Source: Streptomyces sp. CG 926 (GTDB lineage Bacteria > Actinomycetota > Actinomycetes > Streptomycetales > Streptomycetaceae). From it: a stretch of 64,000 bases of DNA. Shown one piece after another: positions 11,025-52,080 of this stretch. The position numbers and the translations under genes were made by a program. The DNA lies in contig NZ_QGGZ01000007.1 of assembly GCF_003148825.1 (NCBI RefSeq), positions 1 to 64,000 on the forward strand, read 5' to 3'. The notes beneath the pieces are model-generated. The model saw only the letters and a list, made by a program, of their open reading frames with translations, did not search any database and was not told the origin of the DNA. Position 1 is the stretch's first letter, and each line of letters begins with the position of its first letter.

Positions 11025-11609
11025 GTGGCACGCACACGCACACCCGTCGTGAGCGGGTGGTTCACCGAGGACGCGCCGGACGGCGGGGGCTTCCGGCTGC
11101 TCGGCACCCGGTGCTCGGCCTGCACCGCGGTGTTCTTCCCGCGCGAGGACGCGTACTGCCGCAATCCGCACTGTCCCGGGGGCGGCGACCTCGCCGAGGT
11201 GCCGCTGTCCTCGCGGGGCCGGATCTGGTCCTACACCGACGGGCGCTACCGGCCCCCCGCGCCGTACGTGTCCGACCCGGCCGTGCCCTGGGAGCCGTAC
11301 ACGCTGGTCGCGGTGGAGCTGGAGGCCGAGGGGATGGTGGTCCTGGGGCAGGCCGCGCCCGGGGTGGGGGTCGCCGATCTGGCCGTCGGGATGGAGGTCG
11401 AGGTGGTCGGGGGCGTGCTGAACGAGGAGGGTGGGCTCACTGGGGTCTCCGGGGCTGCTGGGGCCACGGGGACCAACGCGGCCACCGGCGCCACCGACGC
11501 CACCGACGCCACCGACGCCACCGACGCCACCGACGCCACCGACGCCACCGACGCCACCGGGACCGTCTGGACCACCTGGCGGTTCCGGCCGGTGGGAGGC
11601 GCCGCGTGA
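11025..11609 (+). CDS. Zinc-ribbon/OB-fold protein (DUF35 type), thiolase partner
   Basis: A 194-residue protein starting at GTG after AGGGAGGGG. Residues 20-60 hold a zinc ribbon (CSAC ... CRNPHC) and residues 60-130 an OB-fold (GRIWSYTDGRY ... GYPYTLV-like). Such proteins pair with thiolase-fold enzymes and may deliver acyl-CoA substrate. The thiolase gene starts inside the stop codon of this one. The C-terminal 45 residues are an odd Ala-Thr-Asp tract encoded by a 9-bp tandem repeat, absent from family members as I know them. Confidence 0.85.
   Translation: MARTRTPVVSGWFTEDAPDGGGFRLLGTRCSACTAVFFPREDAYCRNPHCPGGGDLAEVPLSSRGRIWSYTDGRYRPPAPYVSDPAVPWEPYTLVAVELEAEGMVVLGQAAPGVGVADLAVGMEVEVVGGVLNEEGGLTGVSGAAGATGTNAATGATDATDATDATDATDATDATDATGTVWTTWRFRPVGGAA
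11481..11561 (+). repeat. 9-bp coding tandem repeat (GCCACCGAC)
   Basis: Seven perfect copies of GCCACCGAC at 11490-11552 are flanked by one variant unit on each side (GCCACCGGC and GCCACCGGG). The period of 9 keeps frame and encodes (Ala-Thr-Asp)n near the C-terminus of the zinc-ribbon protein. The perfection of the copies suggests recent slippage, so copy number is likely to vary between strains. Confidence 0.95.
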
Positions 11610-18198: not shown

Positions 18199-18715
18199 CC
18201 GCCCGCGCCCCCGGCCGTGCGCGCGTACGCCCCACAAGGCCGCCTCACGCCGACGTGCGCGCCCGGGTGCCCCCGAGGAGGACCCTCCGACGGTCTCCGG
18301 GCACTGTTCCGCGCGCCAGCCACCCTCTCGCCCGGCGTGCACGCCTCGGTGCCCCGAGGCGGCCTCGCGTCGACGTGCGCGCCCGGGTGCCCGAGGCGGC
18401 CTGGCGTCGGCGGCCCACTTGGTCCCCATGAGGACGGCCCTCCGGGCGCTATTCGGCGCGCCGGTCGCCCTCGCGCCCCGCGTGCGTGCGTCCCCGCGAC
18501 GATGTCTCACGTCGACGCGCACGCCCGGGTGCCCCCGAGGCCGCCTGGCTTCGGCACGTCTGCCTGGTCCCCGCGAGGACGCCCCTCCGGCGGCCTCCGG
18601 GCACTGTTCCGCGCGCCGACGCCCTCACGCCCGGCGAGCGCGCGTGCGCCCCGCGAGGACGCCTCGCGTCGGCGCGCGCATGCGGCCCCGCGACGATGTC
18701 TCGGGTCCGCGTGCG
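18154..18715 (+). repeat. Four degenerate tandem repeats of 124-152 bp
   Basis: The block GAGGAC ... CTCCGGGC(A/G)CT(G/A)TTC(C/G)GCGCGCC recurs with GAGGAC at 18154, 18278, 18430 and 18575 (spacings 124, 152 and 145). Each copy also carries a GACGTGCGCGCCCGGGTGCCC-like segment further on. The first copy overlaps the 3' end of the membrane-protein gene; the others fill the 538-bp gap before the SMC-like gene. No reading frame is conserved across copies. Confidence 0.8.
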
Positions 18716-39757: not shown

Positions 39758-41383
39758 TCACCCCTGTGGGCGTACGAATACCTCCCGCCCGCCGACGACG
39801 GTGGCGAGGCACACCGGCAGGTCGGATCCGGGGGTCAGGTCGGGCAGTCCGGGGGTTCCCGAACGGGGGTCGGTGGACCAGCGGGCGACCCGGTCGTCGG
39901 GGGCCTGGACCACCAGGTCACCCGTCTGCCAGACCGCGTAGTCGGCCGGCGCGCCCGGGACCAGGACGCCCGCGTCGTCGCGACCCAGCGCCCGCCAGCC
40001 GCCCCGGGTGTGGGCCGTGAACGCGGCCCGTACGGAGATCCGGTGCTCGGGGGTCCGGTGGAAGGCCGCCGCCCGCACGGTGCCCCACGGGTCGAGCGGG
40101 GTGACCGGCGCGTCCGAGCCGAAGGCCAGCGGGACACCGGCCTTCAGCAGGGCCGCGTACGGGTTGAGGGTGCGGGCCCGCGCGGCGCCGAGCCGGTCGA
40201 CGTACATACCGTCCTCGCCACCCCAGGCCGCGTCGAACGCCGGCTGCACCGAGGCGGTGAGCCCCAGCTCCGCGAAGGCGGCGATGGTTGCGGGCGTCAT
40301 CATCTCCGCGTGCTCCACCCGGTGCCGGGCGGCCCGGACCCGGGCCAGGCCGACCTTCTCGGCGGCCGCCCGTACGCCGTCGACGACGGCGGTGATCGCG
40401 GCGTCCCCGATGGCGTGGAACCCGGCCTGGAGGCCCTCCTCGGTGCAGGCGGCCACGTGTTCGGTGACGGCGTGCACGTCGAGGTACTCGGTGCCGGTGT
40501 GCGCGGCGTCCGCGTACGGGGCGTGCAGGCAGGCGGTGTGCGAGCCGAGGGCTCCGTCGACGAACAGGTCTCCGGCGGCCCCGACGGCCCCCAGCTCCTT
40601 GGCCAGGGCGAGGTCCCGGTCGGCCCAGTACCCGAAGACGCGCGGCCCGGGCCGCTCGGCGGCCAGGGCGAGCAGGCCGGTGAAGTCCTCGGCGGAGGAG
40701 ATCTCGGGCCCGCCGCACTCGTGGACGGATCCGATGCCGAGGGAGGCGGCCCGCTCCAGGGCGGCCCGCTGCGCCTCGGCACGCTGGGCGGGGGTGACGG
40801 CGGCCAGCGCGGCCCGCCGTACGGCGTGGTGATCGTCGGCGGTCAGCGGACGGTCGCCGTCGGGCCGTACCCCCGGCACGAGGGCGAGGAGGGCCGTGGT
40901 GACCACGGCCGAGTGCACGTCGACGCGGCTGAGGTAGAGGGGGCGGCCGCCGGTGGCCTCGTCGAGCTCGGCGCGGTAGGGGGCCCGGCGCTCGGGCCAC
41001 CGGGCGGCGTCCCAGCCGTGGCCGAGGAGCACCCGATCGGCCGGGCGGCTCGCGGCGTACGCGCGTACGAGGTCCAGCGCGGCGGGCAGGGTGCGCGCCC
41101 CGGAGAGGTCCAGCCCGGTCAGGGCCAGGCCCGCGGAGGTGGTGTGGACGTGGGCGTCGGTGAAGGCCGGCGTGACGAGCGCGCCGCCGAGGTCGACGAC
41201 CTCGTCCACGCCCTGCGCGAAGGCGTCGGCGGCGCCCTCGGAACCGACCCAGGCGACGCGCCCGCGCTCGACGACCATCGCGGTGGCGAAGGGGTCGGCG
41301 GGGCTGTGCACCTCGCCCCCGCGGAGAAGAACGGTCCTGGTCGGTGCTCCGGCGGCGGCGGAGTGGGCGGTGCGGTCAGTCAT
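39758..41383 (-). CDS. Amidohydrolase-superfamily protein (YtcJ-like)
   Basis: A 541-residue metal-dependent hydrolase. LVTPAFTDAHVHTTS gives the first metal-binding HxH; VHECGGPEI, GFHAIGDAAITAVVDG, HRVEHAEMM and FGSDAPVTPLDPWGTV give the remaining conserved His/Asp residues of this subgroup. Substrates in the family are small amides or N-acyl compounds; none can be assigned here. No signal peptide. It is monocistronic. Confidence 0.88.
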   Translation of the reverse strand: MTDRTAHSAAAGAPTRTVLLRGGEVHSPADPFATAMVVERGRVAWVGSEGAADAFAQGVDEVVDLGGALVTPAFTDAHVHTTSAGLALTGLDLSGARTLPAALDLVRAYAASRPADRVLLGHGWDAARWPERRAPYRAELDEATGGRPLYLSRVDVHSAVVTTALLALVPGVRPDGDRPLTADDHHAVRRAALAAVTPAQRAEAQRAALERAASLGIGSVHECGGPEISSAEDFTGLLALAAERPGPRVFGYWADRDLALAKELGAVGAAGDLFVDGALGSHTACLHAPYADAAHTGTEYLDVHAVTEHVAACTEEGLQAGFHAIGDAAITAVVDGVRAAAEKVGLARVRAARHRVEHAEMMTPATIAAFAELGLTASVQPAFDAAWGGEDGMYVDRLGAARARTLNPYAALLKAGVPLAFGSDAPVTPLDPWGTVRAAAFHRTPEHRISVRAAFTAHTRGGWRALGRDDAGVLVPGAPADYAVWQTGDLVVQAPDDRVARWSTDPRSGTPGLPDLTPGSDLPVCLATVVGGREVFVRPQG

Positions 41384-41444
41384 GCCGACCAGTGTCCCGC
41401 GTCGCCCACCCCGGCCCCACCACCGGGTCCCGCTCGGGCCCGGT

Positions 41445-41894
41445 TCAGACGCGGGGCGGGCGCGCCTCGTAGGGGGTGGACAGGACGACCGTCGTGCGCG
41501 TCGAGACGTGGGCGAGGGCGCGCAGGCGGCCCAGGAGGTCTTCCAGCTCCAGGGGGGTGGCGACGCGCACCTTCAGGATGTAGTTCTCGTCGCCCGCGAC
41601 GCTGTGGCAGGCCTCGATCTCGGGGACACCGGCCAGCCGGTCGGCGATGTCGTCCGGAGCGCTCGGGTCGAAGGGCTTGACCGAGATGAACGCGGTCAGC
41701 GGCAGGCCGACGGCCTCCGGATCGACCACGGCCGCATAGCCGCGGATGACCCCGCGCTGCTCCAGACGTCGTACTCGCTGATGGACTGCCGACGTGGACA
41801 GTCCCGTGGCCTTGCCCAGATCCGTGTAGCTCATCCGCCCGTCCCGCACGAGCAGATCAACGATCTGGCGGTCCAGCTCCTCCATTGCGCTCAT
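41445..41894 (-). CDS. Lrp/AsnC-family transcriptional regulator
   Basis: A 149-residue regulator with the typical N-terminal helix-turn-helix (LDRQIVDLLVRDGRMSYTDLGKATGLSTSAVHQRVRRLEQRGVIRGY) and a C-terminal RAM effector domain (IEACHSVAGDENYILKVRVATPLELEDLL). It probably responds to an amino acid. It is divergent from the gene at 42103 across 208 bp. Confidence 0.95.
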   Translation of the reverse strand: MSAMEELDRQIVDLLVRDGRMSYTDLGKATGLSTSAVHQRVRRLEQRGVIRGYAAVVDPEAVGLPLTAFISVKPFDPSAPDDIADRLAGVPEIEACHSVAGDENYILKVRVATPLELEDLLGRLRALAHVSTRTTVVLSTPYEARPPRV

Positions 41895-42102
41895 AGCCGC
41901 TCAACTTAAGGCCCAAGGGCACTCCAGGCCCAGTGCTGTCCGCCCACTGGAGGCATCTGCGGCGGGCATGTGACCAAGGCCACAGGGGTATGCAGGTGGA
42001 GGCCTGTCTGTTGTGGTTACTCGTGACGCTCGACGGGAATTGGTTGCTGTGGCCGAGGCCGAAGAACCTGCCCGCCCGGCCCACCCAAGGGGGAGTACAT
42101 CC

Positions 42103-42582
42103 ATGCTGAACACCAAGCGCGCCGGTCGCACCGAACCGGAGCCCCTGGAACCGCTCGATCCAGGGAACGGTACGTATCCGATCGACGGCGGGGACGGAGA
42201 CTTCCTCGACGAGATCGAGGGCTTCGAGATCCACCACGCGATCTGCCCCGACTGCGGCCAGTCGATCGCCCTCGTCGCGGACGAGGAGTACCTGCCGCAG
42301 CACGCCCTCTGCCTGACCCCGTGGAACCCCTTCGGCCTCACCGTGTGCGCGGGCACCGGTCGGCCCGCGAGCGACGCGCTGCCCACCGTCGGCATGATCC
42401 AGCCGGTGGAGGTGCAGGAGCTCGAATCCGTCGTCCTGTCGGCCCTGCCCCAGGGACTGGACTGGCGGACGCAGCCCTTCTCGCACGTCGGCGGCCCGGG
42501 CTCGCGACCGGTGCGTGTGGTGAGCCCGGTGCTGCCGCGGCCGCAGGCGCAGACGCGGCAGCAGCACGCGCAGGCGGCCTGA
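42103..42582 (+). CDS. Conserved hypothetical protein with CPxCG motif
   Basis: A 159-residue soluble protein that I do not recognise. The centre holds ICPDCGQSIALVADEEYLPQHALCLTPWN, where Cys/His residues could bind a zinc ion. The N-terminus is acidic/Pro-rich and the C-terminus is Gln/Arg-rich. AAGGGGGAG precedes the ATG. It is convergent with the gene at 42599, leaving only 16 bases. Confidence 0.72.
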   Translation: MLNTKRAGRTEPEPLEPLDPGNGTYPIDGGDGDFLDEIEGFEIHHAICPDCGQSIALVADEEYLPQHALCLTPWNPFGLTVCAGTGRPASDALPTVGMIQPVEVQELESVVLSALPQGLDWRTQPFSHVGGPGSRPVRVVSPVLPRPQAQTRQQHAQAA

Positions 42583-42598
42583 CGGCCGCCCCGCTCCT

Positions 42599-43690
42599 CT
42601 ACCAGTACGTTCCCTGCACCATGGCGGCCAGAGCGGCATGGTGCAGGATCAGGCTGTCCGGGTCCGCCGGGACCTCGACCTCGCCGAAGTGGGCCTGCCG
42701 GTAGGCGATGCGCAGCATCACGATGCCGTGCCGCAGGGCCGCGTAGAGGGTGTGGAACTCCATGTCCCGCGGGGTGTGGCCGGTGAGCTCGGCGTAGCGG
42801 CGCTCCAGGTCCTCGCGGCGCAGGAAGTCCGGCAGGCCGGGCTGGCCGAAACCGACCGTGAGGTCCTGGAAGAACCGGTGCAGGTAGACGGTCCAGCCGA
42901 GGTCCACCTCGCGGGGGGCGTACGCCGCCATCTCCCAGTCCAGGACGGCCACGGGCGTGAATCCGTCGTAGATGACGTTGCCGATCCGGGCGTCGCCCCA
43001 GTTGAGGACGGCGGGCCCCTCGTCCTCGGGCCACAGCTCCTCCAGCCGGGCGAACGCCCGCTCGATGAGCGGGGACGGGGCGAGCCCGCCCACCACCCAC
43101 GCGTAGTAGGCACGTTGGGCGTCCACGTGCCGGCGAAGGGGTGTGCCCTCGCCGTCGGGAAGGAGGAACTCGGCCTCCTTGGCGGGGAACTGGTCGTGCA
43201 GCCGGGCCAGCAGCGAGATGCTCTCCTCCTGGAGGGTGGCGCGCTGGGCGTCGGTGGCGGCGTGCAGCCAGTTGCCCTCGTAGGTGTAGGGCATGACATC
43301 GGGCGGGACCCGCCCCTCCGCACGGGCCATGACGAAGAACGGCGCCCCCAACGGCCCCGGATCCGCCTCCAGCCACTGCACGCGCGGCACGGGCAGGTCC
43401 GTGTGCTCGGCGACCAGGCTCATCACGCGGTGCTGGCGCGGCATGTCGTACGTGGGGAAGACGGTGTAGGCGGCCGGATCAGCGGCGAGCCGCAGCGCGC
43501 AGGCCCGCAGCGGGGTGTCGGGGTGCTCTATGTCGAAGAGCAGGGTCTCGCTGGACATCCCGTTGGATCCGGGGACGGAGACGTTCGTGACCCGCGCGCC
43601 GGGGAGCCTGACGTCCAGCCAGGCGGCGAGAAGGCGGCCGAGCTCCTCGGGCTCCCGGGTGGAGGTACGCGGGCGTGGTGCGGTGGCCAT
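42599..43690 (-). CDS. Phosphotransferase-family (APH/ChoK-like) protein
   Basis: A 363-residue aminoglycoside phosphotransferase-like kinase fold. The catalytic loop reads LNWGDARIGNVIYDG, with Asp and Asn in place but the usual preceding His replaced by Asn-Trp; VAVLDWEMAAYAPREVDLGW is the metal-binding DxE region. Members with this form often act in acyl-CoA metabolism (ACAD10-like) rather than drug resistance. It follows the AttH-like gene by 45 bases and is probably co-transcribed. Confidence 0.87.
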   Translation of the reverse strand: MATAPRPRTSTREPEELGRLLAAWLDVRLPGARVTNVSVPGSNGMSSETLLFDIEHPDTPLRACALRLAADPAAYTVFPTYDMPRQHRVMSLVAEHTDLPVPRVQWLEADPGPLGAPFFVMARAEGRVPPDVMPYTYEGNWLHAATDAQRATLQEESISLLARLHDQFPAKEAEFLLPDGEGTPLRRHVDAQRAYYAWVVGGLAPSPLIERAFARLEELWPEDEGPAVLNWGDARIGNVIYDGFTPVAVLDWEMAAYAPREVDLGWTVYLHRFFQDLTVGFGQPGLPDFLRREDLERRYAELTGHTPRDMEFHTLYAALRHGIVMLRIAYRQAHFGEVEVPADPDSLILHHAALAAMVQGTYW

Positions 43691-43735
43691 GATTGAGCCC
43701 CTTTCCTACGGGTCCTGGTCCTACGGGTCCTTGTC

Positions 43736-44869
43736 CTACTGGGCGACGGAGGAGTAGTCGGCGAATCCGCTCGGGTCGTGGCGCCCGAAGCTGCCGTGCT
43801 CGAAGATGCCGTGGCCGATCCGCCCGTCGAGGGTGAAGCGGGCGGAGTGGTCGGTCACCCCGAAGGCGGCCATCGGATGGGCCGCGGGGTCGGAGAGGTC
43901 GTAGACGCGGCGGTCGCTCCAGCCGCGGCCCTGCCAGGTGCCGTGCTGCCAGTCGGCGGCGGGCGGATAGCCGGCGCCGACGGCGAGGGGGGAGGAGTTG
44001 AGGATCTCCACGCCCAGTTCGAGGGGCTTGCGGGAGGGGTCGGTCAGGTGGACCACGGCCCGCTCGGGGTGCCGACTGCCGGGTCGGTAGCGGATCTCGG
44101 TGTGCGGCCAGCCGAGTTGGACGTCATGGCGTCCGCTGCCGTCGGGGAAGACCTGCACGGCCTCGTTCAGTGTGCGGTGGCCGTCGGCGTCCTCCTGGGC
44201 GATGACCATGAGGAAGCGGTCCTCGAAACGGACCGGGATCCACAGCCAGTGAAAGCCCTCGGGGCGGTGCTCCTCGGCCGCGCGCCCCCCTTCCTCTCCG
44301 GGGATCGGCCGCACGCCCCAGCTCCGGTCGCGGGTCCCGGTCCACTCCCCCGGTGTGAGGGTGAACCGCTCCCCCTTGGCCCGGATGGTGCCGGCGACCT
44401 GACCGGCCTGTACGAAGCGGCGGCCCTCCAACATGAGGCGGTCACCGCGCCGCTGGACATGGTGCGGCTCCCAGACGGCCGGGAACTCGGCGGTCCAGGT
44501 GATGTCGTACGAGAGGCCGTTCGGGTCTGCGGGATCGGCGGCGCAGCGCAGCGTGAGCTGCTTGAGCGGCACGTCGACGGTGATGGACAGAGGGCCCACC
44601 GAGAGGTTCATCCGGTCGTCGGTGAGGGCGTCGGAGGCCCGGACGGCGAGCAGTTCGTCGCCGACGCGGAGGGTGGCGTAGGCGTCGATGACCCCGGCGT
44701 TGGGGTAGACGCCGAGGCCGAGGATCAGGACGGCGCGGCCGGCGTGGTCGAAGACGTGGAAGATACAGCGGTCGTAGGCGTTGCGGTCACCGCTGACGAC
44801 GTGCTTCATCGACAAGGGCGCCTGATGGATGGGGTATTCGTCGAGCGCGACGGGCCGGTCGGCGGACAT
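43736..44869 (-). CDS. AttH/lipocalin-like hypothetical protein
   Basis: A 377-residue beta-rich protein. RDRSWGVRPIP and HWLWIPVRFEDRFLMVIAQED resemble the AttH/hydroxyneurosporene-hydratase-like double lipocalin group; the exact family is uncertain. AGGAGG precedes the ATG. The stop region is triplicated by a 15-bp tandem repeat (43704-43745), giving three in-frame TAG codons. It sits in an operon with a kinase-like gene, and its promoter carries a TGACG-N3-CGTCA palindrome. Confidence 0.7.
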   Translation of the reverse strand: MSADRPVALDEYPIHQAPLSMKHVVSGDRNAYDRCIFHVFDHAGRAVLILGLGVYPNAGVIDAYATLRVGDELLAVRASDALTDDRMNLSVGPLSITVDVPLKQLTLRCAADPADPNGLSYDITWTAEFPAVWEPHHVQRRGDRLMLEGRRFVQAGQVAGTIRAKGERFTLTPGEWTGTRDRSWGVRPIPGEEGGRAAEEHRPEGFHWLWIPVRFEDRFLMVIAQEDADGHRTLNEAVQVFPDGSGRHDVQLGWPHTEIRYRPGSRHPERAVVHLTDPSRKPLELGVEILNSSPLAVGAGYPPAADWQHGTWQGRGWSDRRVYDLSDPAAHPMAAFGVTDHSARFTLDGRIGHGIFEHGSFGRHDPSGFADYSSVAQ

Positions 44870-44979
44870 GGCGAACCTCCTGGACGGACGGCTTCGGGGG
44901 TTTCGGGGCGGTATCGGGGCGGTGATCGGGCGGTACCTGGGCGGCTTCGAAACGGCTCCGAGGTGCGGCTCGGCAGATA

Positions 44980-44992
44980 TGACGGTACGTCA
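44980..44992. promoter_or_regulatory. Palindromic operator TGACG-N3-CGTCA
   Basis: A perfect 5-3-5 palindrome about 110 bp upstream of the AttH-like start, next to AT-rich CATATC that could be a -10 box for leftward transcription. The form is typical of TetR-family operators. No tetR gene is in the window, so the regulator would be unlinked. Confidence 0.5.
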
Positions 44993-45110
44993 GAAACCAG
45001 CCCCGAGGCCACCCTTCTGGCACGCTCTGACAGACCGGCGCGCAATGCCGGGGGCTGCGCGGGGCGGGGGCGGGGCCGGGCGGGGCGGCGGGAGCCGGAC
45101 GGGCGGGGTC

Positions 45111-45561
45111 GGTGCCTGGGGCCTCGGCTGCGGCACGCGGAAGCCGGCGGGGCGGGGGCGAGTACGCGCGGCGTGGCTTCGGGGGCGCGGGAGCCTCTCG
45201 GGCGGCATCAGAGACGTGTATGGGGGTTTCCCGTCAGTCTCATCGTCTCTCCGTGTCGGGCCGGCCCCTCAAGGGCGCTCCTCCTTCGTCGTCGCGTCGC
45301 TACGCGATGGCCTGCGGCCACCCTTGACCGACCGTCCCGCCCCGGACATACGAAGACTGTCGGGAAGCCCCCAAAAGAACGAGCCGGTCGAAGGTCTGAG
45401 GGGCGGGGACATCACAGAAGCCCAGGCCCGGTCCCGGTGGGGCGATCCCGAGACGAGGCCATGACAGCCCCCGGCCGGGTCGGGGGAAGCGCCCGGTTCG
45501 CTGCGCGCTGCTCACGTCCCAGCGCCCGACGACCGGCCTGGGCTGGACATAAGCCGCCCAC
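45111..45561 (+). repeat. Long inverted repeat, left arm (451 bp)
   Basis: This segment matches the reverse complement of 46466-46916 with 4 mismatches and no gap over 451 bp (99.1 percent by my base-by-base comparison). It begins GGTGCCTGGGGCCTCGG and ends ATAAGCCGCCCAC. No credible gene lies in it. It includes a 153-bp core with its own terminal inverted repeats (45221-45373), and its inner end runs into an array of 63-bp units. Confidence 0.95.
45221..45373 (+). mobile_element. MITE-like 153-bp element, left copy
   Basis: The termini are TGGGGGTTTCCCGTCAGTC at the left and, read inward from the right, TGGGGGCTTCCCGACAGTC: 19-bp terminal inverted repeats with two mismatches. The interior has no ORF of note. 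A short non-coding element with matching termini is what a MITE looks like. However, homology between the two copies extends beyond the termini, so recent independent transposition is not shown. Confidence 0.5.
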
Positions 45562-45850
45562 GACCTCGATCCGACGCTCGACATGCGTCCGACGACCGGC
45601 CGTGGCTGGACATAAGCCGCCCACCTCGCACGCACTTCTCCATGACGGCGACCGACGACCGTCTGCCGCTGGGCACAGGCCGCCCAGGACCCAGCGACTT
45701 CTCGCTCACGGCGTCCGACAACCGTCCGTGGCCGGTCACGAGCCGCCCACCGCCTACCTGTTCATCGAGGACGGCGTCCGACGACCGTCTGCAGCTAGGC
45801 ATAGGCCGCCCAGGGCTGTCGGAAGCTCTCCGTGAGGGCGTCGGCGGTCG
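45528..45850 (+). repeat. Array of 63-bp units, left (diverged)
   Basis: The core GACGACCG or a variant recurs at 45528, 45591, 45654, 45717 and 45780, each exactly 63 bp apart, with a degenerate sixth copy near 45843. Units share ...GGC(T)GGACATAAGCCGCCCA..., and sequence has diverged substantially while length has not. Translated rightward, a 21-residue motif of the form RRPxxAGHxPPTSHxLLxDG repeats; translated leftward, RxMSSxGRSSDAV repeats in a 123-residue ORF (45512-45883). Confidence 0.88.
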
Positions 45851-46184
45851 GTGCACCCACCCGGTCGCACGGAGGATCGTCAACCGAGGGCGTTCGGCCC
45901 TCGTCCGGGGCGAAAAGGCGTGGGACTGCGGCTATTTCGTGGTGGATGCGGGTCAGCCCGGGTGGGCGGTCCGGAAGGCTGGCGATTAGCCCCAATTACC
46001 CCTGTTCGGGGGCGGGTTTGTGGTGTCGTGCAGGCGCTGACCCGGTTCTACGACCGAATGGACGAGCCATCGGCCGTCCGCCCCTCTCGGCGCCCCTCAT
46101 CAACCCCGAACCGGCCGTCGGTCGCCGTGCGGGTGAAGCACGTAGCGATCTGCAGCGGCTCATGGCCGGCCACGGACGGCCGTC

Positions 46185-46510
46185 GGACGCCGTCAGGGAG
46201 ACGTACGTGCGAGGTGGGCGGCCCATGCCCATCCACAGACAGCCGCCGGACGCCGTCTGAGAGACGTACGTACGAGGTGGGCGGCTTATGTCCAGCCACG
46301 GCCGGTCGTCGGACGCCGTCAGAGAGAAGTGCGTGCGAGGTGGGCGACCTATGCCCAACCACAGACAGCCGCCGGACGCCGTCAGGGAGAAGCGTGTGCG
46401 AGGTGGGCGACCTATGCCCAACCACAGACAGCCGCCGGACGCCGTCAGGGAGAAGCGTGTGCGAGGTGGGCGGCTTATGTCCAGCCCAGGCCGGTCGTCG
46501 GGCGCTGGGA
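46185..46510 (-). repeat. Array of 63-bp units, right (more uniform, inverted)
   Basis: GGACGCCGTC or a variant recurs at 46185, 46248, 46311, 46374, 46437 and 46500, again exactly 63 bp apart, in opposite orientation to the left array. The units at 46374 and 46437 are nearly identical. A rightward frame reads REKRVRGGRPMPNHRQPPDAV per unit, but a TGA at 46258-46260 (AGA in sister units) interrupts it. About 300 bp of ordinary sequence (45860-46160) separate the two arrays. Confidence 0.9.
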
Positions 46511-46916
46511 CGTGAGCAGCGCGCAGCGAACCGGGCGCTTCCCCCGACCCGGCCGGGGGCTGTCATGGCCTCGTCTCGGGATCGCCCCACCGGGACCGGG
46601 CCTGGGCTTCTGTGATGTCCCCGCCCCTGAGACCTTCGACCGGCTCGTTCTTTTGGGGGCTTCCCGACAGTCTTCGTATGTCCGGGGCGGGACGGTCGGT
46701 CAAGGGTGGCCGCAGGCCATCGCGTAGCGACGCGACGACGAAGGAGGAGCGCCCTTGAGGGGCCGGCCCGACACGGAGAGACGATGAGACTGACGGGAAG
46801 CCCCCATACGCGTCTCTGATGCCGCCCGAGAGGCTCCCGCGCCCCCGAAGCCCCGCCGCGCGTACTCGCCCCCGCCCCGCCGGCTTCCGCGTGCCGCAGC
46901 CGAGGCCCCAGGCACC
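46466..46916 (-). repeat. Long inverted repeat, right arm (451 bp)
   Basis: Inverted partner of 45111-45561; the four differences are single-base. Its inner end holds the last 63-bp unit and its outer end stops at the GC-rich run near 46917. The spacer between arms is 904 bp. The arms could pair as a cruciform or as one long RNA hairpin. Confidence 0.95.
46654..46806 (-). mobile_element. MITE-like 153-bp element, right copy
   Basis: Same length and interior as the left copy, bounded by TGGGGGCTTCCCGACAGTC and the complement of TGGGGGCTTCCCGTCAGTC (19 bp, one mismatch). No flanking target duplication can be seen. Confidence 0.5.
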
Positions 46917-47005
46917 GCCCCCGCCCCCGCCCCCGGCGACAGCTCGAACGGATAGCCGCACCCCGGGGGCGATTACCCGGCCCTTCGGTTCCGCGTTGGC
47001 CGGGT

Positions 47006-47242
47006 ATGACCATGCTTCAGTCTTCTACGGGCCGAAGGCGTCGCCCGGCGACGCCGGGTTTCGAAGAATCGGTTCAGCGTCCGCGTGAACAGGCGCAGCA
47101 GGTGCCCGACCCGCCGATCTACCGGGATCTGCTGGCGCGGTGGGCAGATGCCGGCCGGACGCTGCCGGGCCGGCGTGATCCGGAGTGGTCGCGGCTCGCG
47201 TCCTCCCCGGTCTGGCCCAGCACCAGCAGCGGGCTGTACTGA
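47006..47242 (+). CDS. Possible small hypothetical protein
   Basis: A 78-residue ORF whose C-terminal half (VPDPPIYRDLLARWADAGRTLPGRRDPEWSRLA) looks like genuine Streptomyces coding sequence. No good ribosome site is visible before the ATG at 47006; ATG at 47012 is the alternative. It is convergent with the acyl-CoA dehydrogenase, ending 6 bases from it. Confidence 0.5.
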   Translation: MTMLQSSTGRRRRPATPGFEESVQRPREQAQQVPDPPIYRDLLARWADAGRTLPGRRDPEWSRLASSPVWPSTSSGLY

Positions 47243-47248
47243 CCGCGG

Positions 47249-48421
47249 TCAGCGCGTCTCCGGGCCCGCCAGGTGGCGGGCGATGACCATGCGCTGGATC
47301 TGGTTGGTGCCCTCCACGATCTGGAGCACCTTGGCCTCGCGCATGAGCCGCTCGACGGGGAAGTCCGCCGTGTAGCCGTATCCGCCGAGGACCTGCACCG
47401 CGTCCGTGGTGACGGACATGGCCGCGTCCGTGCAGAACAGCTTGGCCATGGCCGCCTGGCGGGAGAACGGCTTGCCCGCGTCCCGCAGTCGCGCGGCCGC
47501 CAGGTAGAGCGCCCGGCCCGCCTCGATCTTGGTGGCCATGTCGGCCAGCATGAAGCGCAGCCCCTGGAAGTCCGCGATCGGGTGCCCGAACTGCTTGCGG
47601 TCCAAGGCGTACGCCAAGGCCTCGTCCAGCGCGGCCTGGGCGACGCCGATGGCGCAGGCGGCGATGCCCAGGCGGCCGGCGTCCAGCGCGGCCAGGGCGA
47701 TGGTGAAGCCCTGCCCCTCCTCGCCGATGCGGCGGGCGTCGGGGACCCGTACGCCGTCGAAGTGCAGCTGGGCGGTGGGCGAGCCCTTCATGCCCATCTT
47801 CTTCTCGGGCACGGCCGCGGTCAGGCCCTCCGCGTCCCCGGGCACCAGGAAGGCCGTGATGCCCTTGGGGCCCTGGGCGCCGGTGCGCGCGAGGACCGTG
47901 TAGAAGTCGGCGACGCCGCCGTGAGTGATCCAGGCCTTGGTGCCGGTGATGATCCAGTCGTCGCCGTCGCGCACCGCCTTGGTGGTGAGCGAGGCGGCGT
48001 CGGAACCGGAGGCCGGCTCGGAGAGGCAGTAGGCGCCCAGCAGGCCGCCGCCGAGCATCGCGGGCAGGTGGGCGCCCTGCTGCTCCTTGGTGCCGTAGCC
48101 GGCGAGGCCATGGCAGGCCAGGGAGTGCACGCTGACGCCGAGGCCGACGGTCAGGCGGGCCGCGGCCAGCTCCTCCAGGACCTGGAGGTAGACCTCGTAC
48201 GGCTGCTCGCCGCCGCCGAATTCCCCGGGGTAGGGAAGGCCGAGCAGGCCGGCCTCGGACAGCAGGGTGAAGACCTCCCGCGGGAAGCGGCCGGAGTCCT
48301 CCTCCTCGGCTGCCTTGGGGCGGATCTCGCGCTGCGCGATCTCGCGTACGAGGGCGAGGAGGTCCCGGGACTCCTCGGTGGGCAGCTGTCGGTCCACCGG
48401 CTGCGGGGCGCGGTCAGTCAT
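47249..48421 (-). CDS. Acyl-CoA dehydrogenase
   Basis: A 390-residue FAD flavoenzyme that makes trans-2-enoyl-CoA and passes electrons to ETF. The FAD-binding signatures are YCLSEPASGSDAASLTTKA and QVLGGYGYTADFPVERLMREAKVLQIVEGTNQIQR, the latter with the catalytic Glu of short/medium-chain enzymes. Chain-length or branched-chain preference cannot be read. Monocistronic. Confidence 0.94.
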   Translation of the reverse strand: MTDRAPQPVDRQLPTEESRDLLALVREIAQREIRPKAAEEEDSGRFPREVFTLLSEAGLLGLPYPGEFGGGEQPYEVYLQVLEELAAARLTVGLGVSVHSLACHGLAGYGTKEQQGAHLPAMLGGGLLGAYCLSEPASGSDAASLTTKAVRDGDDWIITGTKAWITHGGVADFYTVLARTGAQGPKGITAFLVPGDAEGLTAAVPEKKMGMKGSPTAQLHFDGVRVPDARRIGEEGQGFTIALAALDAGRLGIAACAIGVAQAALDEALAYALDRKQFGHPIADFQGLRFMLADMATKIEAGRALYLAAARLRDAGKPFSRQAAMAKLFCTDAAMSVTTDAVQVLGGYGYTADFPVERLMREAKVLQIVEGTNQIQRMVIARHLAGPETR

Positions 48422-48939
48422 GGCGGCGCTCTCCTCCCTGGTCGGGAACGGCGGCGACGCGTGAGGTGTGGGACGCGACGCCGGGTCTCGGTTCTCTCAC
48501 AGCCGATGTTGCCCTCCCGGGTCACGGAAGGGCCTGTTCAGCGGCTGCGGCGGCTTGAGTATGCCCGATCAGGGGCTTCCCGTCACCGGGGCAAGATCAC
48601 CGAGCCGATCGAGCGGCTCTTCGGGGCCGGGAGGTGCCGGACACTCCGGGACGAACCCCTCCGACCACCTTCAGTCTTCAGTGTCGCGCGCGGCCGGGCG
48701 AGCGGCGCGAGCCGCGGGAGGTACGGGAGGGGCGACGGCGAGGTGGTGGCCGCTCCTGCTGTCGGAGCAGGGGGGATCAATCGCTGGGCGACGCCGCGCG
48801 GTCGGCGATGCGGTCCACGGGGAGCACGCCGGTCGCGGTGTCGACGAACAACCGGCGCCCGGCGGCTACGGGTTCAGCTCTGCGCACCGATGCGGACGGA
48901 CCGGGACCGACGGCCTCGTGGTCCCGGACGGCGAAGGGC
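48422..48939. other. Intergenic region with a possible ORF remnant
   Basis: 518 bp without a clear gene. On the minus strand 48777-48900 reads RRAEPVAAGRRLFVDTATG followed by VLPVDRIADRAASPSD and a stop, which looks protein-like, but there is no ATG or ribosome site. It could be a small gene starting at GTG or a remnant. Nothing else is supported. Confidence 0.3.
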
Positions 48940-49092
48940 TCAGAGCCAGCCGATCTGGGTGACGAACATGGCGACGACGACCACGAGGGTCCAGCCGAGT
49001 ACGTGCTCCAGCCAGCTGGAGTCGTCCTTGGGGCCTCCGGTGCGGACGAGGTCCCGGGGGGCGGCGAGAGGGGCGGCGCTGTCGGCAGTCAT
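48940..49092 (-). CDS. Small single-helix membrane protein
   Basis: A 50-residue protein: a hydrophilic N-terminus, then HVLGWTLVVVVAMFVTQIGWL as a membrane helix to the end. The start is MTADSAAPL at 49092; the longer frame to 49173 is a weaker choice. No family is recognised, but codon use is good. Confidence 0.6.
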   Translation of the reverse strand: MTADSAAPLAAPRDLVRTGGPKDDSSWLEHVLGWTLVVVVAMFVTQIGWL

Positions 49093-49208
49093 GGCGTCCA
49101 ATGTGCCGGCGTTCGCGGCTTTCGCGGTAGGGACGTCATGGGTGGCATGCGTCACGCAAAAACTGACATACACGGACAGGAGCGCATACAGAACCAGGTG
49201 GCGGACGA

Positions 49209-49239
49209 CCGGGCCCCGACCTCCTCGGCCGGGGCCCGG
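49209..49239. terminator. Hairpin between small membrane genes
   Basis: CCGGGCCCCG pairs with CGGGGCCCGG across an 11-base loop. It lies 58 bases past the leftward SPW gene stop and can end that transcript. Confidence 0.65.
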
Positions 49240-49296
49240 CGTGCTTTTCCTTCATCCGACACTGCGTCGGCCACTGCGCTCCCTCCGGAGCCCCGA

Positions 49297-49725
49297 TCAG
49301 ACGCGGGACTCACGGTCGCGGCTCGCCATGGCCGCCATCGCGAGGCCGAGGCACAGGGCGACACCTCCGGCGATCACATTGCTGACCACCGTGCGCGTCG
49401 TGTCCATCTCGCCGGCGATGGCCCACGGGGCGACGATCGTCCACGCACCGAGGGCGACCGCCGTCCACGCCATCGCGTGGGTGCGCTCGTAGGCGGAACC
49501 CAGACCGCTCATGCACAGGCAGAAGGCGAGGCCGGCGATCAGATTGTTGATGGCCAGCGGGGTGAGGCCGCTGAATCCTACGATCCAGGGCGAGGCGGCC
49601 AGGTACAGGCCCGTGATCAGGGCCAGCGCTTCGACGGCCTGCGCCCGGGGAGTGGTGGTCACCCGCTCGAACCGGGTGCGCATCTCGGCGAGGTCGGGGT
49701 GGTGCTCGATGGGATGGGTGGTCAT
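49297..49725 (-). CDS. SPW-repeat membrane protein
   Basis: A 142-residue membrane protein with four helices and the SPW repeat: YLAASPWIVGFSGLTPLAINNLIAG and AWTIVAPWAIAGEMDTTRTVVSNVIAG. The function of the family is unknown. The ATG is followed by a hydrophilic His-rich start (MTTHPIEHHPDLAEM). Confidence 0.9.
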   Translation of the reverse strand: MTTHPIEHHPDLAEMRTRFERVTTTPRAQAVEALALITGLYLAASPWIVGFSGLTPLAINNLIAGLAFCLCMSGLGSAYERTHAMAWTAVALGAWTIVAPWAIAGEMDTTRTVVSNVIAGGVALCLGLAMAAMASRDRESRV

Positions 49726-49832
49726 GGCGGGCCGCCTCTACTGAGAAGCCTTTATGTGCCATTTACCCCACTATGTTCCGCTTATCCGTACCGCTTGGTC
49801 AACGGGGAATTTCGCGGCCTGTCGCGGTCTGC

Positions 49833-51215
49833 TCACAGCACCCCCGCCGCTCGCAGCGCCCGGAACTGCTCCCGGCTCGGACGGGCCGGCGCGTAGAGGT
49901 AGCAGACGCCTCCGGAGCCCGAGGTGACCTTGCCGGAGGCGCCCACCCGCTTGGTCCGGAGCCAGATGTTCTCCCACTCGGCGCGCTTGTAGACGCGGCG
50001 CACGGCGGCGTTGTCGTGCGAGTTGGGGTCGTTCGCGATCACGTCCCCGGCGGCGGTGAAACCGATGACGGTCATCAGGTGGCCGGCGGTGCCGTAGCCC
50101 GCGCCCGTGAGTTCCTCGGGGCGGAAGGACTGGGAGGTGATGGCCGGGATCCCGGCCCGGACCAGGGTTTCCAGGTCGGTCAGGGAGGTGAGGCGGGTGA
50201 CGACTCCGGCGAGGCCCGGGTAGGTGGCGGCGTACGCGGCGTTGAAGGGCCAGTTGCCGCAGCCCTTGTAGGCGGCGTCGTAGGTGGAGCGCGCCGCGTG
50301 GCAGACCTGGGGGTCGGAGTACGTGGGGTTCACCCAGGTCAGCGCGGAGGACGGGACCTTGCCACCCCAGTACTCGATGATCATCTGCGAGGAGGTGGGG
50401 CTGCACCAGGCCTCGCCGCCGTTGTCGTACTCGGGATACCGGCCCGCGTGGACCTCCTGCGAGTAGCGCGGGACCTTCAGCTCGTGGGCGGTACGGGAGG
50501 GGGTGGAGGCCGGGACGGTGAAGCGGTCCGGGACGTCGGAGACCATGGCGCCCGCGAGCCAGACGGTGGGACCGAGATCGGCGCCGGGCCGGCGGTGGAG
50601 GGTGAGGCGCAGCTGCCAGGCCGCGATCCGCAGGCCGGCGGTCGCGGTGGGGGCGTCGAGGGCGAGGGTGTCGGTCCAGACGGTGGACCTGCCGTCACTC
50701 TGGCCGTCCACGGAGGTGCGGCGGATGTCCGCCTCGCCGGAGGCCCAGCGGCCCATCACGTACCAGGGGGTGGCGGTGCCGTCGGTGTAGGTGCCGCGCA
50801 GTTCGATCCGGATCCAGGTGCCGGCCGGGGTGCGGGCGTTCCAGGAGGCGATGGCCTCGGTGGCGGGCACGGCCGAGCGGTGCACGGGGGAGGTCCAGGT
50901 GGCGTACTCCCAGGTGCTCTTGCGGCCGGTGTGCGGGTCGGCGTACTCGGTGCGTCCGACGGCCGTCGCGATCTCCAGGCCGGGGCGGGCGCCGCCGACG
51001 GCGGTGGTGCCCTCGTGGGCGCCGGCGAGCCAGTGGCCGTAGGAGTGCCAGAAGCGATTGTCGACGGTGCGGCCCGTGGCCCGTGGGGCGGGAGGGGCGG
51101 GAGGAGTGGGAGGCGCCGCCGAGGCGCTGCCGCCCGGGACGGTGGCGGCGGTGGCCGCGGTGGCGACCGCGAGTGCGGCGACGAGTACGGCCCTGCGCGG
51201 AGTGGGTTCGGTCAT
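49833..51215 (-). CDS. Secreted C39-family-like cysteine peptidase
   Basis: A 460-residue exported protein. MTEPTPRRAVLVAALAVATA followed by an Ala-rich stretch is a Tat- or Sec-type signal peptide. Residues 45-250 are a beta-sandwich-like region; residues 260-430 are a papain-like C39 peptidase: GGEAWCSPTSSQMIIEYWGG (catalytic Cys), GYGTAGHLMTVIGF (His) and DVIANDPNSHDNAA (Asp/Asn). The substrate is unknown. The start at 51215 is the first one that gives a signal peptide. Confidence 0.87.
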   Translation of the reverse strand: MTEPTPRRAVLVAALAVATAATAATVPGGSASAAPPTPPAPPAPRATGRTVDNRFWHSYGHWLAGAHEGTTAVGGARPGLEIATAVGRTEYADPHTGRKSTWEYATWTSPVHRSAVPATEAIASWNARTPAGTWIRIELRGTYTDGTATPWYVMGRWASGEADIRRTSVDGQSDGRSTVWTDTLALDAPTATAGLRIAAWQLRLTLHRRPGADLGPTVWLAGAMVSDVPDRFTVPASTPSRTAHELKVPRYSQEVHAGRYPEYDNGGEAWCSPTSSQMIIEYWGGKVPSSALTWVNPTYSDPQVCHAARSTYDAAYKGCGNWPFNAAYAATYPGLAGVVTRLTSLTDLETLVRAGIPAITSQSFRPEELTGAGYGTAGHLMTVIGFTAAGDVIANDPNSHDNAAVRRVYKRAEWENIWLRTKRVGASGKVTSGSGGVCYLYAPARPSREQFRALRAAGVL

Positions 51216-51341
51216 CGCGGGTTCCCCCAGGGTGGGTCGGTACGTCGGTGGCTTTCGGCCGCCGTCCGGCATCACCCTTCCAGTTCCCGGCGGTGGCGGC
51301 CCGAAGCCACGGGTCGTGTCGGGCCTGTCTAGGCTGGTCGG

Positions 51342-51974
51342 GTGGAGCCACAGCAGTCACTTGAGTCACTCGCCCGGGAGCTCGCCGCCCTGCCGCCCTC
51401 CCTCGGGCCGGTGCGCCTGATCGGGATCGACGGGCACGCCGGATCCGGGAAGAGCACCTTCGCGGGGCGGCTCGCCGAGGTGCTGGGGGCGCCCGTGCTG
51501 CACCTGGACGACGTGGCCACCCATGAGGAGCTGTTCGGCTGGGAGGAGCGGCTGCGCGCGCAGGTGCTGGAGCCGCTCGCCGCCGGGCGGTCCGCGCACT
51601 GGACCCCGTACGACTGGGTGGAGCGCCGGTTCGGGCCGGAGCGGGTGCTGGACCCGGCGCCGGTTCTCCTGGTCGAGGGGGTCGGGGCGGGGCGGGCCGC
51701 GCTGCGGCCGAGGCTGGCGCGTCTGCTGTGGATGGAGACGGCTCGTGAGCAGTCCTGGCAACGGGGGCGAAACAGGGACGGGCGTGAACTTTCCGACTTC
51801 TGGGACGGATGGGAGCGCGCGGAGCGCGCGCACTTCTCCAACGACCCTTCGCGCCCCTTCGCCGACACCTTGGTGCGCCAGAGCGGTACGGGATACGAGT
51901 GGACTTCCGGGGCCTGTGCGACGGCGGGAACCTCCGCTTCCGTCACCGGGAGTGACGACCTCCCCCGGGCCTGA
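51342..51974 (+). CDS. Uridine-kinase-like P-loop protein
   Basis: A 210-residue cytosolic P-loop NTPase starting at GTG. Walker A is IDGHAGSGKST; LHLDDVATHEELFGW and PVLLVEGVGAGRAALRP follow the uridine kinase/phosphoribulokinase pattern. It probably phosphorylates a nucleoside or other small hydroxyl substrate. It is divergent from the peptidase across 126 bp. Confidence 0.82.
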   Translation: MEPQQSLESLARELAALPPSLGPVRLIGIDGHAGSGKSTFAGRLAEVLGAPVLHLDDVATHEELFGWEERLRAQVLEPLAAGRSAHWTPYDWVERRFGPERVLDPAPVLLVEGVGAGRAALRPRLARLLWMETAREQSWQRGRNRDGRELSDFWDGWERAERAHFSNDPSRPFADTLVRQSGTGYEWTSGACATAGTSASVTGSDDLPRA

Positions 51975-52080
51975 GGGCCCTCGGAAATCCGCTCCGCCGG
52001 GGCCCGGCCGACCCGCTTGACCGGGGGCCCGCGGCGGCCTTACGTTCTGAATGCGAGGCCTTCACAGGCCGCCGCGGACA

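Follow-up and report, generated by a model that had tools for sequence, protein, structure and literature searches.

Inverted-repeat elements with hairpin cores and variable gene content at shared intergenic sites of Streptomyces

The locus and the anatomy of the element

The window, that is, the whole stretch of 64,000 nucleotides analyzed here, comes from the 8.5-Mb draft genome of Streptomyces sp. CG 926 (46 contigs; G000 hereafter) and carries a long inverted repeat between two divergent genes. The gene on the left (43,736 to 44,869, minus strand) codes for 377 amino acids with a weak match to DUF7064, below the cut-off, and the small gene on the right (47,006 to 47,242, plus strand; 78 amino acids) has no Pfam match and precedes an acyl-CoA dehydrogenase gene identified with Pfam (47,249 to 48,421, minus strand); all three are given as context only. 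The left arm of the repeat (45,101 to 45,561, plus strand) pairs with the right arm (46,466 to 46,926, minus strand), and a base-by-base comparison of these 461-bp arms gives five mismatches, with 904 bp between them. The initial annotation had counted four mismatches and no gap between 45,111-45,561 and the reverse complement of 46,466-46,916, a count that is exact (positions 45,174, 45,217, 45,227, and 45,398); the match continues for 10 bp outward past these 451 bp, with one extra mismatch at 45,109. Since the other inverted pairs detected within 40,000-52,000 are diverged repeats of the same element (72 to 82%) or matches of 20 to 32 nt, the arm match is far beyond chance. Two other tandem repeats were seen in the window, at 18,295-18,590 (two copies of a 145-bp unit) and at 11,481-11,559 (8.8 copies of a 9-bp unit).

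An outer stretch is the outermost part of each arm; further inward come the core (about 160 bp), the inner arm, and finally the 63-bp units, arranged as an array. The left core (45,221 to 45,380, plus strand; covariance model match at 45,216-45,385) is an imperfect palindrome with a hairpin fold and represents the most conserved part of the family; like the right core (46,647 to 46,806, minus strand; model match at 46,642-46,811), it recurs in other copies. The segment 45,215-45,400 folds with -91.2 kcal/mol (z -4.8), and none of 200 shuffles was as good. The stem is mostly invariant, with two-sided changes in some sequence at 8 of its 44 predicted pairs, and the covariation term of the fold is small (-0.24 of -53.09 kcal/mol). 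The outer end is not sharp, end-to-end homology reaching from 4 to 209 bp beyond the core in 44 copies (left median, 58). A search of Rfam gave no match inside the element at E values up to 1 and two weak matches outside it, at 47,325-47,550.

Repeat detection and unit comparison delimited a left array (45,522 to 45,814, plus strand), in which a 63-bp unit with a conserved part of 39 bp occurs five times in tandem, and an inverted right array of six units (46,155 to 46,505, minus strand). Between them lies a central block (45,889 to 46,130, no strand assigned) that four of the other five intact G000 copies share, among the copies listed. The 904 bp between the arms had been measured correctly as a spacer, but this label undersells a stretch that holds both arrays and the central block. 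The fetched copies contain 181 units, 122 of them distinct and complete, and with these 122 we discarded a pseudoknot or hairpin in the 39-bp part, given that none of four proposed helices beat shuffles. Within the 39-bp part, several of the variable positions are spaced by three, and the units (45,522-46,505) can be read as a repeated peptide similar to RRPxVAGHKPP. Long frames do run through the element in several reading frames, but a coding role for the repeats was rejected, since the four tested have no Pfam match and the unit spacing in other copies varies and is not a multiple of three (among the copies listed), which breaks the frame. The gene caller finds nothing inside the window copy either, and within these tests the earlier statement that the block contains no gene stands for this copy.

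The initial annotation had proposed a comparison with other Streptomyces genomes, in which the block turned out to be present or absent as a unit at this position in related species. The site is also occupied in the genomes G215 and G070, with both arms present in each. Among 13 further relatives that were fetched, all eight in which both flanking genes were found have no core at the site, while the remaining five gave the right-hand genes only and are uninformative. The intergenic motif TGACGGTACGTCA (44,980 to 44,992, no strand), located outside the element, is in place in all eight element-free relatives, in G215, and in the window. In six of the element-free relatives, those with a match to the small gene that starts no later than residue 7, the starts of the matches to the two flanking genes are 138 to 206 bp apart, versus 2,137 bp in the window and 1,420 bp in G215.

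A dispersed family with shared sites and changing gene content

The block had been described as a possible two-ended element not yet reported. It is two-ended, and we found no description of it in the literature searched, but it is not a single block: it belongs to a family with several to more than 10 copies per genome. G000 alone contains five other intact copies (two on contig C2, two on C5, and one on C11) and another with decayed arms on C2. Matches to the arm with an E value of 1e-8 or better were found in at least 41 of 295 Streptomyces genomes, G000 included, a lower bound since only two candidates were scored per genome. Nine matching genomes that were searched deeper gave from 11 to at least 49 matches each, among the matches listed. 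The covariance model of the core, at an E value of 1e-15, matched 12 of 14 genomes, three of which had already been searched by arm; the two without a match, G005 and G009, were negative in that search too. The exact core pattern appeared in Streptomyces avidinii JCM 4726 and in Streptomyces sp. strains NBC_00249 and NBC_01214, and one linear plasmid carries a full core. No match to the element was detected in phage records by distant blastn or in viral contigs with the exact pattern.

The cores are organized in pairs. Among the matches listed for 19 genomes, 156 of 224 cores can be assigned to 78 pairs of neighbors, separated by less than 5 kb and spanning 883 to 3,883 bp from outer edge to outer edge, and every one of the 78 has the same inverted, inward-paired orientation. 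The list behind these counts drops short partial matches and the second-strand self-matches of the palindromic core, and the cores of G055, G285, and G243 were counted from the deeper arm search only. The other 68 cores have no partner within 5 kb among the matches listed, and not all of them are in drafts; some are at contig ends, and others have a partial partner left off the core list. In G058, G055, and G266, several cores lie no more than about 1 kb from the start of a contig, a position suggestive of assembly breaks at the elements. Two diverged inverted core pairs without 63-bp units (L046 3073-5447 in G006 and L047 3080-3913 in G004) perhaps represent a sister family.

A comparison of flanks identified 12 sites, each common to between two and four genomes and each supported by at least one pair of genomes that match on both sides. 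The grouping gave 12 sets, one of which was split into sites A and B, while the pair L047/L098, with one flank at 77%, was dropped. Some assignments have a single strong flank only, namely, those at site D (G215 and G285 versus G189 and G054) and at site F (G054), and site M is weak, with 542 to 767 bp at 76 to 81%; for copy L043 at site A, the second flank also matched, in a separate comparison. No clear target-site duplication was found in 44 copies, and the 5-bp matches near the ends of three of them (L099, L104, and L117) were taken as chance. At site D, G000 has no element, and a trans-2-enoyl-CoA reductase gene (435 amino acids; L170 2655-4044, G000:C2, about 368.7-370.0 kb) occupies the same junction without arms. 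Since an unrelated gene can be held there without the element, the sites may be permissive in themselves. The neighboring genes are convergent at 13 of 45 copies, versus 36 of 197 background pairs, and divergent at 5 of 45, versus 51 of 197, a slight bias, also compatible with insulation or with the avoidance of promoters. The copies appear to be mostly old residents at fixed intergenic sites.

The absence of genes, noted for the window copy, is not a trait of the element, and other copies hold genes between their arms. At least one gene was predicted inside 18 of 45 paired copies with the strict version of a simple codon-composition caller, although this is not a random sample, since the fetched copies were picked from pairs visible in the deeper nine-genome search. 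Gene content differs between species at 8 of the 12 shared sites (A, B, D, G, H, I, J, and M), in a comparison that includes weak frames dropped from the previous count. For instance, G000 and G189 encode a GntR regulator with a small protein at site A, where G054 has a PadR regulator and a hydrolase; site G contains no gene in G000 or G215, but in G189 it has a GntR regulator with the small protein; and site I codes for an aldo/keto reductase and a TetR regulator in G070 and for a different protein in G189. At site M, the sole difference is a transposase-like frame. Two transposase-like genes were found inside copies, each once and of different families, and in the cargo examined no transposase is shared by the copies, as the initial annotation had indicated for the window block in stating that none explains it. 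No integrase was noticed among the Pfam results of the scanned cargo.

The small protein, of about 70 amino acids, is present in eight copies, pointing outward in all of them and directly beside an arm in seven (examples are L040 4950-5192, minus strand; L101 3281-3532, minus strand; and L106 5083-5334, plus strand). It has no Pfam match and no meaningful NCBIfam match. Matches to it were found in 8 of 13 genomes searched and in none of three element-free controls, but G215 and G054 gave no match either. Structure prediction suggests a beta-rich protein (mean pLDDT of 79 in the best model and 41 to 60 in the other four), with no PDB match at an E value of 0.001.

The same protein is encoded on two linear plasmids, NZ_CP108163 (L149) and NZ_CP034352 (L147), in a common 3-kb cassette (83% identity) with different surroundings, together with a GNAT protein, a pterin dehydratase, and a Tat-signal protein. 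One plasmid cassette has a full left core and the other (L147) lacks most of it, and neither has a recognizable right arm. We rejected L147 as a clean empty site; its gap begins outside the core and ends inside it, and it is therefore a deletion. G000 and G189 both have a NUDIX gene within the element, and G055 has it next to a core close to the end of a contig. In six other fetched genomes, no core lies within the 10 kb taken around it; its presence away from cores indicates that the cargo is ordinary accessory DNA. In no genome was a cassette directly caught moving between two of its sites.

Similarity of the ends within genomes and its interpretation

We compared 91 cores, all longer than 140 bp and none from G004, G006, or the plasmids. 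Mean identity reaches 0.926 when both cores belong to one copy and 0.920 when they come from different sites of the same genome, versus 0.840 for the same site in another genome and 0.835 when neither is shared. The nearest core outside its own copy belongs to the same genome for 82 of the 91 and to the same site in another genome for none. The core tree groups largely by genome, with G000 and G215 partly mixed. This grouping is not strict between the closest species, as the left core of the window and the right core of the same site in G215 do not differ in any of 154 columns. Another copy of G000, L038, has a left arm that is 92 to 100% identical to that of the window from the start of the core to 302 bp inward; its own right arm reaches 62 to 91% over that stretch, and identity outside the core falls to 58 to 85%. 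Over the same bins, the two arms of the window agree at 95 to 100%. The pattern of L038 is the trace expected from exchange of arm sequence between sites. The initial annotation had listed recent origin or homogenization among the causes of arms this similar, and with other copies of the same genome having less similar arms, the near-identity of the window arms fits recent homogenization; on sequence comparison, they were probably homogenized recently.

The reading that we favor, with moderate confidence, is that the window block is a copy of a non-autonomous foldback-type element with recombining repeated ends, the middle of which serves as a bay for gene cassettes. In keeping with that class, the family is multicopy, and its long inverted ends contain tandem repeats. 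In favor of the reading are the uniform orientation of the 78 core pairs, the shared sites, the greater similarity of cores within than between genomes, the arms of L038, the changing gene content, and the eight relatives that lack the element at the site of the window. Against it stand the lack of a clear target-site duplication, the cores without a partner, the core shared with G215, the gene without arms at site D, and the plasmid cassettes without a right arm. Each end, made of an outer hairpin core and inner tandem units, would flank a replaceable middle, and the window copy is a gene-free form. The anatomy, the family, the shared sites, the presence or absence at the site of the window, the homogenization, and the turnover of cargo are observed, and breakage, the enzyme, and the route by which cassettes enter are inferred. 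The long palindromic ends might extrude or stall and break, or be cut by a putative enzyme. Repair would then use sister ends in the same genome as templates, copying arm sequence between loci, and could carry a gene cassette from bay to bay. New cassettes may enter through end joining or through homologous exchange with incoming DNA, linear plasmids included.

Several other explanations deserve consideration. An ordinary transposon family, MITE-like or of the mobile-cassette type and moved in trans by an unseen transposase, is possible but somewhat doubtful. The tandem units would be extra transposase sites, as proposed in a section of the Galileo literature for the repeats within its long ends (secondary transposase sites; PMC3573991), the shared positions would be recurrent preferred intergenic targets, and the similarity within genomes would reflect recent spread. 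A two-ended, multicopy, intergenic element with empty sites is what such a family would look like, but the copies have no transposase in common in the cargo examined, the two found inside being single and of different families, the 44 copies lack a clear target-site duplication, and as many as four species carry the element at one and the same junction. We regard as improbable a fixed regulatory, insulating, or chromosome-organizing site, in which the cores would be bidirectional terminators, the arrays would bind proteins at intervals of whole helical turns, and the genes would be incidental. The strong core hairpin, the 63-bp spacing in the window copy, and the excess of convergent over divergent neighbors would suit such a site; however, every neighbor orientation occurs, the window copy itself lies between divergent genes, relatives do without the element at that position, and the units of other copies are variably spaced.

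It appears very unlikely that the element is transcribed and functions as a long double-stranded or structured RNA. The core folds far better than its shuffles and has two-sided changes at some pairs, but most pairs never vary, covariation contributes little, the helices proposed for the units do no better than shuffles, and Rfam finds nothing inside. Least likely of all is an assembly artifact in the window copy: G000 is a draft (46 contigs), and cores close to the ends of contigs are seen in several other drafts, but the same paired structure occurs in genomes of one to five contigs (G150, G070, G215, and G054), and both arms are present at the site of the window in G215 and G070.

A stronger form of the foldback-type reading would be a dedicated system of cassette exchange, with docking bays bounded by self-copying hairpin ends, through which small sets of accessory genes would circulate from one chromosomal site to another, between species, and to and from linear plasmids. 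The beta-rich small protein at the cassette edge and a host enzyme acting on the tandem units might assist in this. We consider this form rather unlikely. The chromosomal gene content of Streptomyces turns over fast, and passages of two papers on the genus name integrative elements and break repair as routes (PMC6722414, PMC5869714). The family described here provides a type of site defined by its sequence, at which small gene sets come and go within conserved neighborhoods, and bays defined in this way make the question of gene turnover testable. In addition, the concerted evolution of the ends documents, in natural genomes, exchange between distant loci of a bacterial chromosome.

Comparison with known systems

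The family is apparently undescribed. We found no description of such elements in Streptomyces in the portion of the open-licence literature examined, although absence there is not proof, and the very long plasmid repeats reported in part of a study on S. rimosus (PMC9045324) are distinct from them. The nearest described systems are Foldback/Galileo, BrickBuilt, and the REP systems. REP, BIME, and REPIN sequences with their RAYT proteins are, in the excerpts consulted, likewise palindromic, dispersed, and arranged in inverted pairs. They measure 20-40 versus about 160 bp for the cores here, which number from a few to tens per genome. We rejected REP/RAYT as an identification, with PF01797 (Y1) present in 3 of 10 element-bearing genomes and in none of six others. 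All three genomes with a Y1 match bear the element. MITEs are short, commonly a few hundred bp, and gene-free, with inverted ends. Outer spans that reach from 883 to 3,883 bp and predicted genes in 18 of 45 copies separate the Streptomyces elements from MITEs in size and cargo. A word search of the available text of a MITE review did not return the word Streptomyces (PMC10969869).

BrickBuilt, a minisatellite-bearing MITE of Porphyromonas gingivalis, is also bacterial, intergenic, and multicopy, with tandem repeats between inverted ends, but, according to the part of its description that we used, these are 23-nt repeats in one array and the inverted ends are small (PMC4596501). The Streptomyces element has instead two inverted arrays within long arms with hairpin cores, and it carries genes. 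A resemblance in structure also links the element to Foldback/Galileo of Drosophila, which, from the relevant section of the source, combines long terminal inverted repeats, internal tandem repeats, and a variable or missing middle (PMC3573991). Those elements are eukaryotic, and complete Galileo encodes a P-type transposase, whereas the Streptomyces family has so far no transposase of its own, and its middle consists of varied bacterial genes.

With regard to gene content, Streptomyces hot spots are likewise sites at which related strains differ (PMC6722414), and the genus is known to integrate or capture DNA at repaired breaks (PMC5869714). The examples in the portions of these works that we drew on are integrative elements at tRNA genes and biosynthetic clusters, with no inverted-arm element among them. 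The presence of small, varied accessory genes in a fixed bay also recalls integron cassettes, the cargo types that prompt this likeness being GNAT, NUDIX, aldo/keto reductase, and GyrI-like/Cass2 domains. Integron cassettes stand in a one-ended row, whereas the cassettes seen here are single and lie between two inverted arms.
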